Under the pieces are notes generated by a model. That model was not told where the DNA came from. It searched no databases and saw only the letters and a list, made by a program, of their open reading frames with translations. From NCBI RefSeq assembly GCF_000263715.2, contig NZ_CM001514.1, positions 978,936-1,042,935 on the forward strand: a stretch of DNA of 64,000 nucleotides, given 5' to 3'. This stretch comes from Pseudomonas synxantha BG33R. Lineage in GTDB: Bacteria > Pseudomonadota > Gammaproteobacteria > Pseudomonadales > Pseudomonadaceae. Numbering within the stretch: the stretch's first letter is position 1; every line of letters begins with the position of its first letter. This document shows, one piece after another, positions 4,529 to 37,001 of the stretch. Both the position numbers and the translations under genes were made by a program.

Positions 4529-6127
4529 TTACTTCACCTGGGTGGTGGCGAAGTTATTTGTACCCAGAGGGCTTTGGGTGAAGCCCTCTACGTTCTTGCG
4601 CAGGGCGGTGAACAGTTTCGGGTAAGCCATGGGAAGCCAGGGTTGGTCTTTCTCGAACACATCCTGTGCTTGTTCATAGAGCGCGGCCCGTTCGGCCGGT
4701 TCCGCGACTGCACGGGCTTTGTCGATCAAGTCCTGAAACTCTTTGTTACACCAGCGGGCGTAGTTTTCGCCGTTTTTGGCTGCATCGCAACTCAGGTTTG
4801 GCGTCAGGAAGTTATCCGGGTCGCCGTTATCACCGACCCAGCCCGCCGAAACCATGTCGTGCTCGCCGTTTTTGGCACGCTTGAGCATCTCGCCCCATTC
4901 CATGACCTTGATATTGATCTTCAAGCCAATCTGGGCCAGGTCTGCTTGCATACGCTGGGCGCCGAGCATCGGGTTGGGGTTGGTCGGGCCGCCGCCGTTA
5001 CGGGTGAACAGGGTGAATTCGGTGCCTTCCGGCACGCCGGCTTCCTTGAGCAGGGCACGGGCCTTGTCCAGGTCGCGCGCTGGGTTTTTCAGCTTTTCAC
5101 TGAAACCCAGCAATGTCGGTGGATAAGGGCCGGTGCCCACGACTGCATTGCCTTTGCCGAACAGCGCTTCGGTATAGCCGGTCTTGTCGAACGCGATATT
5201 GATTGCATGACGTACCCGCGCATCGCTCATGTATTTGCGGGTGGTGTTCAATGCGGTATAGCTGGTGGTCATCGCCGCCAGTTCATCGACTTTCAGGTTC
5301 GGGTCTTTCTTGATGCTTGGGATGTCGTCCGGCTTGGGGAACAATGCGATCTGACATTCGTTGGCCTTGAGCTTCTGCAGGCGCACGTTGTTATCGACGG
5401 TGATTGCCAGAATCAGCGGATCGACCGCCGGCTTGCCGCGGAAGTAGTCGGGGTTGGCCTTGAAGCGTGCCTGGGCGTCTTTCTGATAACGGGTGAAGAT
5501 GAACGGGCCAGTGCCGATGGGCTTGGCATTGAGGTCTTCGGTCTTGCCGGATTTGAGCAACTGGTCGGCGTATTCCTTCGAATGGATTGAAGAGAATGCC
5601 ATGCCCAGGTCAGCCAGGAACGGAGCTTCAGGACGGGTCAGGGTAAAGACGACGGTATGATCGTCGATCTTCTCTACGCTCTTGAGCAGTTCCTTGAACC
5701 CCATGCTTTCGAAGTACGGGTAGCCCACGAGGGACTTTTTATGCCAAGGGTGATTCGGGTCCAGCTGGCGCTGGAAGCTCCAAAGCACGTCGTCGGCGTT
5801 CAGGTTGCGCGTGGGTTTGAAATAGTCGGTGGTGTGGAACTTGATATCGTCACGCAGGTGGAAGGTGTAGGTCAGGCCATCGGCACTGATTTCCGGCAGG
5901 TCTTTAGCCAGCGCAGGGACCACCTCGGTAGTACCGGGCTTGAAGTCCACCAGACGGTTGAACATGGTTTCAGCGGCGGCATCGGCGGTCACGGCGGTGG
6001 TGTACAGGACCGGGTCGAAACCTTCCGGGCTGGCTTCGGTGCACACCACCAGCGGTTTGGCCGAAACGCCGATCGCCACGCTCAACAGCGCGGCAGCCAT
6101 GGCGGCTTGTAGCGGGAGCATTTTCAT
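4529..6127 (-). CDS. dppA: peptide-binding protein of the Dpp transporter (family 5), copy adjacent to dppB
   Basis: Periplasmic family-5 solute-binding protein, 532 residues, with a cleavable signal peptide ending in VSAKP at about residue 24. It carries the family start VVCTEASPEGFDP, the SADGLTYTFHLRDDIKFH block near residue 85 and the GDNGDPDNFLTPNLSC block near residue 430. GAGGG lies seven bases before the ATG. It is the binding protein nearest to the permease genes and departs most from the other three copies here (CTEASPEGFD instead of CSEGSPAGFD). Its peptide preference cannot be read from sequence. Confidence 0.92.
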   Translation of the reverse strand: MKMLPLQAAMAAALLSVAIGVSAKPLVVCTEASPEGFDPVLYTTAVTADAAAETMFNRLVDFKPGTTEVVPALAKDLPEISADGLTYTFHLRDDIKFHTTDYFKPTRNLNADDVLWSFQRQLDPNHPWHKKSLVGYPYFESMGFKELLKSVEKIDDHTVVFTLTRPEAPFLADLGMAFSSIHSKEYADQLLKSGKTEDLNAKPIGTGPFIFTRYQKDAQARFKANPDYFRGKPAVDPLILAITVDNNVRLQKLKANECQIALFPKPDDIPSIKKDPNLKVDELAAMTTSYTALNTTRKYMSDARVRHAINIAFDKTGYTEALFGKGNAVVGTGPYPPTLLGFSEKLKNPARDLDKARALLKEAGVPEGTEFTLFTRNGGGPTNPNPMLGAQRMQADLAQIGLKINIKVMEWGEMLKRAKNGEHDMVSAGWVGDNGDPDNFLTPNLSCDAAKNGENYARWCNKEFQDLIDKARAVAEPAERAALYEQAQDVFEKDQPWLPMAYPKLFTALRKNVEGFTQSPLGTNNFATTQVK

Positions 6128-33807: not shown

Positions 33808-34557
33808 ATGGAAAACGCCAGCGCCGCTCCACGTCTGCCCCGCAAGCGCCGCAGCCTTGCCCAGGAATTGGTCACGGTGTTGTCCGAGCAGATCCGCGAT
33901 GGCCAGCTCAAACGCGGCGATAAATTGCCTACCGAGTCGGCGATCATGGAAGCCCACGGCGTCAGCCGCACCGTGGTGCGCGAGGCCATCTCGCGCTTGC
34001 AGGCGGCGGGGCAGGTCGAGACCCGCCATGGTATCGGCACCTTTGTGCTGGACACGCCCAGCCCCAGCGGTTTCCGCATTGACCCGGCCACCGTGGTGAC
34101 CTTGCGTGATGTGCTGGCGATTCTGGAGCTGCGTATCAGTCTGGAAGTAGAGTCGGCGGGCCTTGCCGCCTTGCGTCGCAGTGATGCGCAACTGGCCGCC
34201 ATGCGTGCGGCTCTTGATGCGCTGAATGAAAGTGCGGCCCACGCTGGCGATGCGGTGGCGTCAGACTTTGCCTTTCACCTGGAAATTGCACTGTCTACCG
34301 GTAACCGCTACTTCACCGATATCATGACCCACCTGGGTACCAGCATCATTCCGCGGACCCGCTTGAATTCGGCGCGCCTGGCCCATGATGACCAGCAGCA
34401 TTACATGGGCCGCCTGAGCCGCGAACACGAAGAAATCTATGAGGCAATTGCCCGCCAGGATTCGGATGCGGCGCGGGCGGCCATGCGTCTGCATTTGACC
34501 AACAGCCGTGAGCGGCTGCGCCATGCCCATGAAGAGGCAGAAGCACAGCGCGTCTGA
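33808..34557 (+). CDS. FadR-subfamily GntR regulator, probable regulator of galactarate/glucarate catabolism
   Basis: 249 residues with an N-terminal winged helix (about 15-78: LAQELVTVLSEQIRDGQLKR, LPTESAIMEAHGVSRTVVRE, AISRLQAAGQVETRHGIGT) and a C-terminal all-helical FCD effector domain with metal-binding positions (D in DFAFHLEIA, H in FHLEIA, and H in LSREHEEIYEAI). FadR-type regulators next to sugar-acid genes usually repress them until the acid or its catabolite binds. It lies 2.3 kb from kdgD, separated by the phospholipase-like gene. The start at 33808 gives the family N-terminus. Confidence 0.85.
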   Translation: MENASAAPRLPRKRRSLAQELVTVLSEQIRDGQLKRGDKLPTESAIMEAHGVSRTVVREAISRLQAAGQVETRHGIGTFVLDTPSPSGFRIDPATVVTLRDVLAILELRISLEVESAGLAALRRSDAQLAAMRAALDALNESAAHAGDAVASDFAFHLEIALSTGNRYFTDIMTHLGTSIIPRTRLNSARLAHDDQQHYMGRLSREHEEIYEAIARQDSDAARAAMRLHLTNSRERLRHAHEEAEAQRV

Positions 34558-34572
34558 GGTTTGCCATATCCC

Positions 34573-34663
34573 GTGTGGGAGCTGGCTTGCCTGCGAATGC
34601 AGTGGTTCAGTAACAAACTCAATGACTGACACACAGCTATCGCAGGCAAGCCAGCTCCCACAT
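34573..34663. repeat. REP doublet (inverted pair)
   Basis: GTGGGAGCTGGCTTGCCTGC and GCAGGCAAGCCAGCTCCCAC flank a spacer of about 50 bases. It lies between the convergent regulator and phospholipase-like genes. Confidence 0.88.
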
Positions 34664-34694
34664 TTGACCTCCATTATCTGGATACCGGGCCTGT

Positions 34695-35852
34695 TTAGCT
34701 GGCGGGTTGATTGGGCTTGTAGTCTTTGAGCAACAGATACGTACTCCACCCCCACCAATCATTGGTCCAGTGTTTGTCGTTCAGGTCATTGACGTCCTTG
34801 CGCCGCAGCACCTTGTCCCCCTCCATCTTGAACAACGGCGAGAAGTTGTTCGCCGGGTTTTGCGCGGCGTTCAGGTCGGGCACATACAGCGGTGCCTTGA
34901 AGCTGGCCGGGGAGGGCGCGACGCCGCTGATGAAGGTTTCGAAGATTTCGTCTGCCGAAGCCTGCACCGCACGTTTTACCTGCACGCGATTATCGGCGTC
35001 GATGCTGTCGAAGTAGCGCTTGTCGCCGTAGGCATGCCACTGATCACCCATGGCATTACGCACCTTGAGCCCGAACTTGCTGTCTTCGTCGTGCATGAAG
35101 CGGCTGATCAGCGAACCCAATTCACCTGGTGTCACAACGGCTGCCAACTGTTTGCGTGGCACTCGCAGGTGCCCGGCGGAAAACAGGTCGGTCAAGAAGT
35201 GATCAGCGAAGCTGTTCATCGCATAGGCCAGTTCCAGGGCCTGGTCGGTACCTGTCTGGTGGGCCACAACCGCTTGTTGCAGCGCCGTCGTGTGACCGGC
35301 CAGGTACGCGGACAAGGCCCACTCACCGAAGTGATCGGCATTGTCCGCTGCCAGCTTGAGGTAGCGTCCCAAGGGAATCAGGGCCGAAACAGCGCTGCCG
35401 CCACCCGTGATGCGGTTCCACTCCTCCGACAACGTATCACCCAGTGCGTCGTAGGCTTCATGGGGTTGTTTGCCATCCTTGATCGCCTGCTTGACCGCGT
35501 TGATTTCCTTTTGCATCACCGCCAGGATCTTCTGCGCCTCTTCCCGTGAGGCGGGTAATACGGCGAGAGAGTTGAAGGCTGCAGTGAAACGTTGCACGCG
35601 CTCGGCCGCAGAGGCGCCATCGCTGATGGCTTGGCCGGGGATGCCATAGAAATCGCCACCTAAAGCGATCACTTGGCCGTAGGTCAGCGCGAGCCCGTTG
35701 GGCAGATGCAATTGCACCTGGTGTGCAGGAATCGCCGCAGCGTCCTTGGCGAAGCGCAGCAGGGTTTCATCGCCGATGGCGGTGTGTTCACCCCCTTCAA
35801 AACGCAGGGTTGGCGGGAGTTTCTCGGGTACTGCGAGTTCAAGACCTGACAT
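34695..35852 (-). CDS. phospholipase C/P1 nuclease-like protein under a LexA-type operator
   Basis: 385 residues without a signal peptide. Two DHF...GH units stand out: NADHFGEWALSAYLAGH (171-187) and FADHFLTDLFSAGH (215-228), plus GEHTAIGDE (21-29), GGDFYG (65-70) and a late HDEDSKFGLKVRNAMGDQW block (254-272). Closely spaced His and Asp residues of this kind supply the zinc ligands of the phospholipase C/P1 nuclease fold, so a zinc-dependent phosphoesterase, probably a phospholipase, is the best guess; activity is an inference. AAGGAG precedes the start. The gene has its own promoter overlapped downstream by a near-consensus LexA box, suggesting damage-induced expression. It splits the sugar-acid cluster. 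Confidence 0.7.
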   Translation of the reverse strand: MSGLELAVPEKLPPTLRFEGGEHTAIGDETLLRFAKDAAAIPAHQVQLHLPNGLALTYGQVIALGGDFYGIPGQAISDGASAAERVQRFTAAFNSLAVLPASREEAQKILAVMQKEINAVKQAIKDGKQPHEAYDALGDTLSEEWNRITGGGSAVSALIPLGRYLKLAADNADHFGEWALSAYLAGHTTALQQAVVAHQTGTDQALELAYAMNSFADHFLTDLFSAGHLRVPRKQLAAVVTPGELGSLISRFMHDEDSKFGLKVRNAMGDQWHAYGDKRYFDSIDADNRVQVKRAVQASADEIFETFISGVAPSPASFKAPLYVPDLNAAQNPANNFSPLFKMEGDKVLRRKDVNDLNDKHWTNDWWGWSTYLLLKDYKPNQPAS

Positions 35853-35891
35853 GTTAGCTCCTTGCTATGTCGTGGAAATCTTCCTTTTTAA

Positions 35892-35907
35892 CTGTATGTA
35901 TATACAG
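35892..35907 (-). promoter_or_regulatory. LexA-type SOS box upstream of the phospholipase-like gene
   Basis: CTGTATGTATATACAG, with perfect CTGTAT/ATACAG arms, differs from the Pseudomonas LexA consensus CTGTATAAATATACAG at only the two central positions. It lies 8 bases downstream of the minus-strand -10 and 40 bases upstream of the gene start, covering the transcription start region, which is the usual repressor position. Confidence 0.8.
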
Positions 35908-35915
35908 CTTAAGTT

Positions 35916-35943
35916 ACTATAGGTGAGAAATTTCCTACGTCAA
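35916..35943 (-). promoter_or_regulatory. promoter of the phospholipase-like gene
   Basis: Read on the minus strand: TTGACG (35943-35938), a 16-base spacer, TATAGT (35921-35916). Both hexamers are one base off consensus or nearly so. The LexA box begins just downstream. Confidence 0.75.
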
Positions 35944-35992
35944 GAATTGCAATCCACACGTCAGGTGCGAGCGGAGGCTCAACGAATTGCAG

Positions 35993-36033
35993 TTGACGAA
36001 TCTTTTTATAGTTGTACGATGACGTACGACATC
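35993..36033 (+). promoter_or_regulatory. promoter and palindromic operator of the kdgD operon
   Basis: TTGACG (35993-35998), 16-base spacer, TACGAT (36015-36020). A palindrome GATGACGTACGACATC at 36018-36033 (symmetric in 14 of 16 positions, centred on CGTACG) overlaps the -10 and the start region. GTTGTACGAT (36011-36020), directly abutting it, recurs upstream of the FadR-type regulator gene. This fits a repressor site for that regulator. Confidence 0.65.
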
Positions 36034-36089
36034 ATCAAAACCAACAACAACGCTTTCCTCAGAAAGTCTTCGCCCAGGGTGTTCGAATA

Positions 36090-37001
36090 ATGAATCCACA
36101 AGAACTGAAGTCCATCCTCTCCCACGGTCTGCTGTCTTTCCCGGTGACCGATTTCAACGCCCAGGGTGACTTCCACCAGGCGGGCTACATCAAGCGCCTC
36201 GAATGGCTAGCCCCTTACGGCGCCACCGCGTTGTTCGCAGCCGGTGGGACGGGTGAGTTTTTTTCCCTCGCTGCCAGCGAATATTCCCAAGTGGTAAAAA
36301 CCGCCGTGGACACTTGCGCGTCCAGCGTGCCGATTCTTGCCGGTGTGGGCGGTTCGACCCGCCAGGCCATCGAGTACGCCCAGGAGGCGGAGCGCCTCGG
36401 TGCCAAAGGCTTGCTGCTGCTGCCGCACTACCTTACCGAAGCCAGCCAGGACGGGGTTGCTGCCCATGTTGAAGCGGTGTGCAAGTCGGTCAAGATCGGC
36501 GTGGTGGTGTACAACCGCAACGTCTGCCGCCTGACCGCGCCGCTGTTGGAACGCCTGGCCGAACGTTGCCCGAACCTGATCGGCTACAAGGATGGCCTGG
36601 GTGATATCGAGCTGATGGTGTCGATCCGTCGCCGCCTGGGTGACCGATTCAGCTACCTCGGCGGCCTGCCGACTGCAGAGGTTTACGCCGCGGCCTACAA
36701 AGCCCTTGGAGTGCCGGTGTACTCCTCGGCGGTGTTCAACTTCATCCCGAAAACCGCCATGGACTTCTACCACGCCATTGCCCGCGAAGATCACGTCACC
36801 GTCGACAAGATCATCGATGACTTCTTCCTGCCTTACCTGGACATCCGTAATCGCAAAGCCGGGTACGCAGTGAGCATCGTCAAGGCCGGCGCGAAAATTG
36901 TCGGGTATGACGCCGGCCCAGTGCGTACGCCGCTGACCGATCTGTTGCCGGAAGAATACGAAGCCCTGGCCGCGCTGATCGACAAGCAAGGCGCGCAATA
37001 A
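36090..37001 (+). CDS. kdgD: 5-dehydro-4-deoxyglucarate dehydratase
   Basis: Converts 5-keto-4-deoxy-D-glucarate to 2-oxoglutarate semialdehyde with loss of water and CO2. 303 residues, the usual length, in the DHDPS/NAL class-I aldolase-like barrel. The Schiff-base lysine is K167 in [11 protein letters not shown]141 in VVYNRNV is the matching tyrosine; the GGTGEF motif is at 52-57. The start at 36090 gives the family N-terminus [20 protein letters not shown]. First gene of the catabolic operon, with the next gene 54 bases downstream. Confidence 0.95.

Follow-up and report, generated by a model that had tools for sequence, protein, structure and literature searches.

A conserved LexA-type box in the promoter of plcC points to SOS control of a phospholipase C in Pseudomonas

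Pseudomonas fluorescens MFN1032 produces PlcC, a 42-kDa protein of 385 residues that is 98% identical to the phospholipase C of Preuss 2001 (PMC2613904). PlcC was found in the supernatant at full size and uncleaved, "secreted by an unknown mechanism", and has no signal peptide or known secretion signal according to its authors (PMC2613904). A plcC mutant lost secreted haemolysis, and its supernatant contained less flagellin and biosurfactant (PMC2613904). The P. fluorescens enzyme is nearest to PlcB (38%; PMC6617341) and PlcC shows 43% to PlcA (PMC2613904), but, compared by description, PlcA and PlcB have secretion signals or use type II/IV secretion (PMC6617341), whereas PlcC has no such signal. 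DNA-damage control of proteins acting outside the cell is a feature of colicins and of Pseudomonas bacteriocins such as LlpA, which is RecA-dependent (PMC2647930). The LexA regulon of P. aeruginosa comprises about 15 genes, mainly for recombination and polymerases, and the available text of a review on it mentions no phospholipase (PMC13114513); strain PAO1 gave no plcC product by polymerase chain reaction (PMC2613904). Here, we analysed a window of 64,000 nucleotides (nt) from Pseudomonas synxantha BG33R (contig NZ_CM001514.1, positions 978,936 to 1,042,935), in which the plcC promoter carries a LexA-type box whose position and conservation make LexA control of this gene in Pseudomonas very probable.

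The gene under study is plcC, the known phosphatidylcholine-hydrolysing phospholipase C gene of the P. fluorescens group, an identity drawn from protein length, primer matches and gene neighbours. Its product has the published length of 385 residues, and the published primers PLC1 and GntR match the window without mismatch, PLC0 with one mismatch, and PLC2 and PLC with three each (PMC2613904). The same dihydrodipicolinate-synthase-like and GntR neighbours accompany plcC of MFN1032 and the enzyme of Preuss 2001 (PMC2613904), and the best 120 of 654 proteins found by homology search are mostly named phospholipase or hypothetical. Phosphatidylcholine-hydrolysing activity has been published for these relatives of the window enzyme (PMC2613904). 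The initial annotation, made from the sequence alone, had correctly placed the 385-residue product among phospholipases C, with two DHF...GH units (residues 173-187 and 217-228), but had missed that the gene was already published. Its remark that a signal peptide is lacking agrees with the translation, in which none is apparent by inspection, and with the available text of PMC2613904, where none is reported. What distinguishes the window from the published locus is the LexA box, since the control proposed for MFN1032 was a suggested GntR site (PMC2613904). The main text of that study, as available, does not mention LexA or SOS, and no prior report of LexA control of plcC was found among the open-licence papers listed; the box is provisionally considered a new element on a known gene.

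This box, CTGTAT-N4-ATACAG, reads CTGTATATACATACAG on the gene strand and CTGTATGTATATACAG on the plus strand, on which it had first been quoted. It is of the same type as the boxes of the P. aeruginosa regulon, and on the plus strand it departs from the consensus CTG-TATAA-ATATA-CAG (PMC13114513) at positions 7 and 8 only, the two bases that the initial annotation had described as central. The coordinates and spacings of the promoter had also been given correctly: the box starts 8 nt past the -10 element of a sigma-70-like promoter (TTGACG-16-TATAGT, 10/12 matches), and the interval 34500-36200 contains two promoter-like sites of this quality, where shuffling gives 0.5 on average. An exact CTGTATNNNNATACAG is present in a promoter, at a place where bound LexA would be expected to block transcription. 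Within the window, a scan allowing three mismatches returned three matches against 0.82 by shuffling, a number equalled by 5 of 100 shuffles and thus weak evidence, and the plcC box was the only exact one. Over the 6,297,495 bases of the genome, the strict form CTGTATNNNNATACAG was found in four places and a reversed control pattern in none, while up to two mismatches gave 117 places and the control 44, which means that looser LexA-type sites are often due to chance. With 0 or 1 mismatch, 21 places were counted from the genome scan. Among them, boxes of the same type lie upstream of recA and lexA (one mismatch each), of a PA0069-family radical SAM gene (one mismatch) and, in exact form, of a YebG-like gene whose family score of 36 bits is under the cut-off of 161. 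The other two exact boxes, at 1529436 (position 5437 of locus L148) and 1859428 (position 4429 of L149), are near small genes without a family match.

The initial annotation had proposed orthologues as the place to look for failure of LexA control, yet within one mismatch the box was found in 80/80, 36/36 and 29/29 plcC loci of three draws, whose counts cannot be added because the draws share genomes. The first collection consisted of the best 80 of 96 loci from a contig scan, all Pseudomonas by title. Here the box was exact in 77 loci and had one mismatch in three (L066, L079 and L099); in all 80 it was preceded by the promoter elements (Table 1) and followed after 38-41 nt by an in-frame ATG. 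In the leader alignment of 79 distinct sequences (L110 being identical to L108), the 12 fixed box positions carry 1.90-2.00 bits each, against less than 0.3 bits for 27 of the 30 positions lying 41-70 nt upstream. Among the 52 short-form loci, to which the divergence comparison was limited, the difference between loci was 0.0064 at fixed box bases and 0.405 at four-fold sites, a conservation beyond neutral expectation. The second draw, of 298 family genomes, contained the gene in 36 (30 boxes exact, six with one mismatch); locus L132 of this draw repeats the genome of L041, and G411 (L130), whose contig begins inside the gene, was left out of box scoring. In the genus draw, 85 of the 249 genomes had a member of the family, and of the 30 loci fetched from it, the 29 nearer plcC all had the box (24 exact, five with one mismatch), while the last, the Pseudomonas paralogue L189, had none (best site with five mismatches). 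Outside Pseudomonas, none of the three homologues scored had a box (L136, L128 and L129; best sites with 3, 4 and 5 mismatches), and the Rhizobium plasmid locus L137 showed neither gamma-type CTGT-N8-ACAG nor alpha-type GAAC/GTTC repeats; L140 and L141 have one such LexA-type match each, at a distance of 1.8 and 3.2 kb, respectively, from the start of the gene. Taken together, the orthologue boxes argue for LexA control far more strongly than the view of a single sequence allowed. The leaders also contain the RsmA/CsrA-type motif ANGGA, twice in 51 and once in 29 of the 80 loci, with one copy inside the ribosome-binding site.

Table 1. Features of the plcC region of the window, and small open reading frames (ORFs) of long-form loci
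Feature	Position	Strand	Basis or remark
plcC, short-form phospholipase C gene, 385 residues	34695..35852	-	ORF with ATG start, homologue names, published length; stop codon inside the end coordinate
-35 element TTGACG	35938..35943	-	promoter scan; TTGAC before the box in 80/80 loci
-10 element TATAGT	35916..35921	-	promoter scan; TANNNT 15-18 nt past the -35 in 80/80 loci
Likely ribosome-binding site AAGGAG	35858..35863	-	read from sequence; well conserved in leader alignment
LexA box CTGTATATACATACAG (gene strand)	35892..35907	-	motif scans and orthologue conservation
H218-x3-D222-x5-H228 codons, metal-site-like motif	35169..35201	-	residues kept in homologues
GntR-type palindrome TGTACGATGACGTACGA	36013-36029		overlaps second hexamer of a divergent promoter-like site (away from plcC, towards kdgD)
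Small ORF behind long-form plc, 62-66 residues	L115:6140-6325	+	
Small ORF behind long-form plc, 62-66 residues	L137:7422-7619	+	
Small ORF behind long-form plc, 62-66 residues	L189:3168-3368	+	

In the mechanism that we propose, LexA sitting on one strong box, placed over the likely start of transcription, would keep plcC off; after DNA damage, activated RecA would lead LexA to cleave itself, and plcC could be transcribed. In E. coli, a near-perfect box goes with tight repression and with expression only after strong damage, which suggests the same for plcC. PlcC would build up in the cytoplasm and leave when damaged cells burst, most simply through the holin-endolysin lysis of damage-induced tailocins or prophages; release by lysis fits because this signal-less enzyme occurs whole outside cells. 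It would then serve as a colicin-like weapon of dying cells, aimed at phosphatidylcholine-rich, mainly eukaryotic membranes. In contrast to colicins and LlpA, plcC is a conserved gene whose place is mostly fixed, and its product has a lipid, not a rival's receptor, as the known target; no colicin-type immunity or lysis gene was recognised beside it in the inspected loci. In P. fluorescens, prophages with a holin and an endolysin occupy the site before recA and might be SOS-activated (PMC2647930). Exit of PlcC through prophage-type lysis from that site is conceivable in BG33R, where no holin was identified there. The stretch directly before recA in this genome (L187; G000:C1:1395000-1412500) contains a lambda-like tail cluster (tip J domains, tape measure) with a GH19-type enzyme. 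Its end (6% of the query) matches a prophage record of P. fluorescens Q8r1-96 in the cinA-recA part, and a contractile-sheath gene occurs at a separate site (L188; G000:C1:3958411-3958905). The chain as a whole, from LexA control and damage induction to release by lysis and target, appears to us evenly poised between holding and failing. Somewhat more doubtful is the wider proposal of an altruistic weapon, in which a whole Pseudomonas clade holds a phospholipase C directed at eukaryotes under tight SOS control, with damage inflicted by a predator, host or rival and release by tailocin-type lysis.

Control by the neighbouring GntR/FadR-type regulator, rather than by LexA, was the suggestion of the MFN1032 study (PMC2613904), and a GntR-type palindrome, TGTACGATGACGTACGA, is indeed present in the window. 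However, it sits over a promoter-like site directed away from plcC, is likely the operator of the neighbouring FadR/GntR-type regulator, and seems, from its placement, to fit the divergent operon better than plcC. Of 74 loci, 47 have a crude form of the palindrome upstream, a pattern that may miss diverged sites; the six loci without the usual neighbours have none, against 80/80 for the LexA box. These neighbours, kdgD on one side and a FadR-type gene on the other, are both present in 71 of the 80 loci, with one of the two in three (L063, L069 and L093) and neither in six (five distinct). The box is also present in all six of the latter and travels with the gene, independently of its usual neighbours. 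GntR-type control in place of LexA control is hardly credible in view of these observations.

For the later steps the balance is less one-sided, and several points weigh against release by lysis onto eukaryotic cells. LexA binding, induction, lysis release and target are steps that we infer, largely from sequence, and passing from a phosphatidylcholine substrate to a eukaryotic target is an extrapolation when taken as a rule. Overproduced PlcC appeared in the supernatant with the extracellular profile otherwise identical (PMC2613904), so that damage-driven lysis is not required and export is allowed. Secreted haemolysis varies with temperature, starts at the onset of stationary phase (PMC2613904) and is lost in Gac mutants, so further controls exist. 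The link between PlcC and haemolysis is itself not clean, because complementation of the mutant restored lecithinase, and flagellin partly, but not haemolysis (PMC2613904). With plcC still controlled by LexA, PlcC could be exported from living cells along a dedicated path, be it flagellar, type III, type VI or vesicular. This option is rather unlikely but deserves to be kept in mind: the overproducer profile and the reduced flagellin release of the mutant fit it, flagellar export was discussed by the authors (PMC2613904), and SOS raises vesicle output in P. aeruginosa in a way reported as non-lysis (PMC3289957), but the inspected loci showed no secretion gene next to plcC, and PlcC is described by its authors as having no known secretion signal. 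The initial annotation had listed lysis, self-killing and release of other proteins as possible roles. An SOS suicide or lysis protein that works from within on the membrane of its own producer would agree with LexA control and the absent signal peptide, and slightly with the reduced flagellin and biosurfactant of the mutant. Yet phosphatidylcholine, the known substrate, is a minor lipid of these bacteria. The overproducer moreover grows, and its otherwise unchanged profile weakly disfavours self-killing (PMC2613904), which we consider improbable; a released enzyme acting outside fits better. That PlcC instead acts inside the damaged cell, in membrane repair or as an S1/P1-type nuclease, its presence outside being incidental, would accord with SOS genes being mostly repair genes and with an H-x3-D-x5-H motif common to PlcC and the P1-type proteins fetched, but is very improbable given the lecithinase in the supernatant, the mutant's lack of secreted haemolysis (PMC2613904) and the absence of a profile match between PlcC and P1 nucleases.

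The likeness to zinc phospholipases C and P1 nucleases proposed in the initial annotation held as a resemblance of motifs, without a matching profile. Residues H218, D222 and H228 are kept in 23/23 Pseudomonas rows and 6/6 distant homologues, and H23, D67, H174, H218, D222, H228 and H254 form an ordered, conserved set of His/Asp residues, which may correspond to the metal ligands of the three-metal site in the all-alpha fold of zinc phospholipase C and S1-P1 nuclease. Their order is also similar in Het-C proteins, which motifs and borderline profile hits have tied to zinc phospholipases C and P1 nucleases (PMC3482391), but the Het-C proteins of Pseudomonas have HxxxDxxxH where PlcC has HxxxDxxxxxH. 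A Pfam search with PlcC returned only GlutR_dimer, below cut-off; searches of NCBIfam and PDB sequences gave no match, and a 23-row PlcC profile against PDB gave four chance-level hits only (E 0.48-1.8). The plcC family did not match 10 P1-type or 16 Het-C proteins in hhalign, a comparison of small alignments that is insensitive because P1 and Het-C, said to be related, did not match each other either. Assignment of PlcC by profile to the zinc phospholipase C/S1-P1 nuclease superfamily was rejected on these negative searches, which are weak evidence. Het-C (PF07217) was likewise rejected, with no match in PlcC or elsewhere in the genome of the window. The Het-C domain occurs in 26/149 genus genomes, and the 16 Het-C loci fetched (L165-L180) have no LexA box upstream (best sites with 4-5 mismatches). 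Among the homologues, five proteins of 762-858 residues (P0178, P0185, P0202, P0212 and P0215) also have a Tectonin domain, confirmed for P0185.

A phage or plasmid origin of plcC was rejected: no protein match was found in 50,697 phage records, and 72,556 plasmid records contained two distant protein homologues and no near DNA match. PHROGs gave weak matches only (E 0.077-0.4), and defence-system models none. Besides the short form of the window, long forms of about 430-550 residues exist, with additional sequence at the N-terminus and some at the C-terminus. An ORF of 62-63 residues lies 2-15 nt behind plc in 28/28 long-form loci and 6/6 further ones, and in 0/52 short-form loci; the small ORFs of L115, L137 and L189 have weak Ig-, macroglobulin- or CarboxypepD_reg-like matches, all below cut-off. 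In the Rhizobium homologue and in the box-less L189 (L189:1501-4648, plus strand), plc, an ORF of 65-66 residues and a third gene stand in a row, the third being vWA by Pfam in Rhizobium and similar by eye in L189. LexA control seems to be a novelty of the plcC lineage, because no LexA box was found in these paralogue and Rhizobium rows. A tree of 35 rows places the paralogues with proteins of Burkholderia, Tistrella, Azospirillum and Rhizobium (95/90) and separate from plcC. It allows a single plcC clade, but with poor support (38% of bootstrap trees), and contains one row with a very long branch. On the simplest reading, LexA control would have arisen on the plcC side, and the short form of the window would have lost the partner ORF as well as the sequence at either end. 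Beside distant plc homologues, L140:939-5066 (minus strand) and L142:1898-2371 (plus strand) look like large ATPases by eye, with a P-loop-like stretch in L142 and no Pfam or PADLOC support for the L140 gene. Fragmentary family matches at G1080:C1:5991242-5991931 and G1106:C9:25139-25615 are possibly decayed copies.

PlcC has so far been regarded as a haemolysin whose export route is unsolved and whose control by GntR is a guess, and the box makes both directly testable. The altruistic-weapon proposal, if true, would account for the unsolved export of PlcC. If plcC is controlled by LexA, its expression would follow DNA damage, including the damage caused by some antibiotics, and the narrow SOS regulon of Pseudomonas would extend from repair to an enzyme attacking the membranes of other cells.
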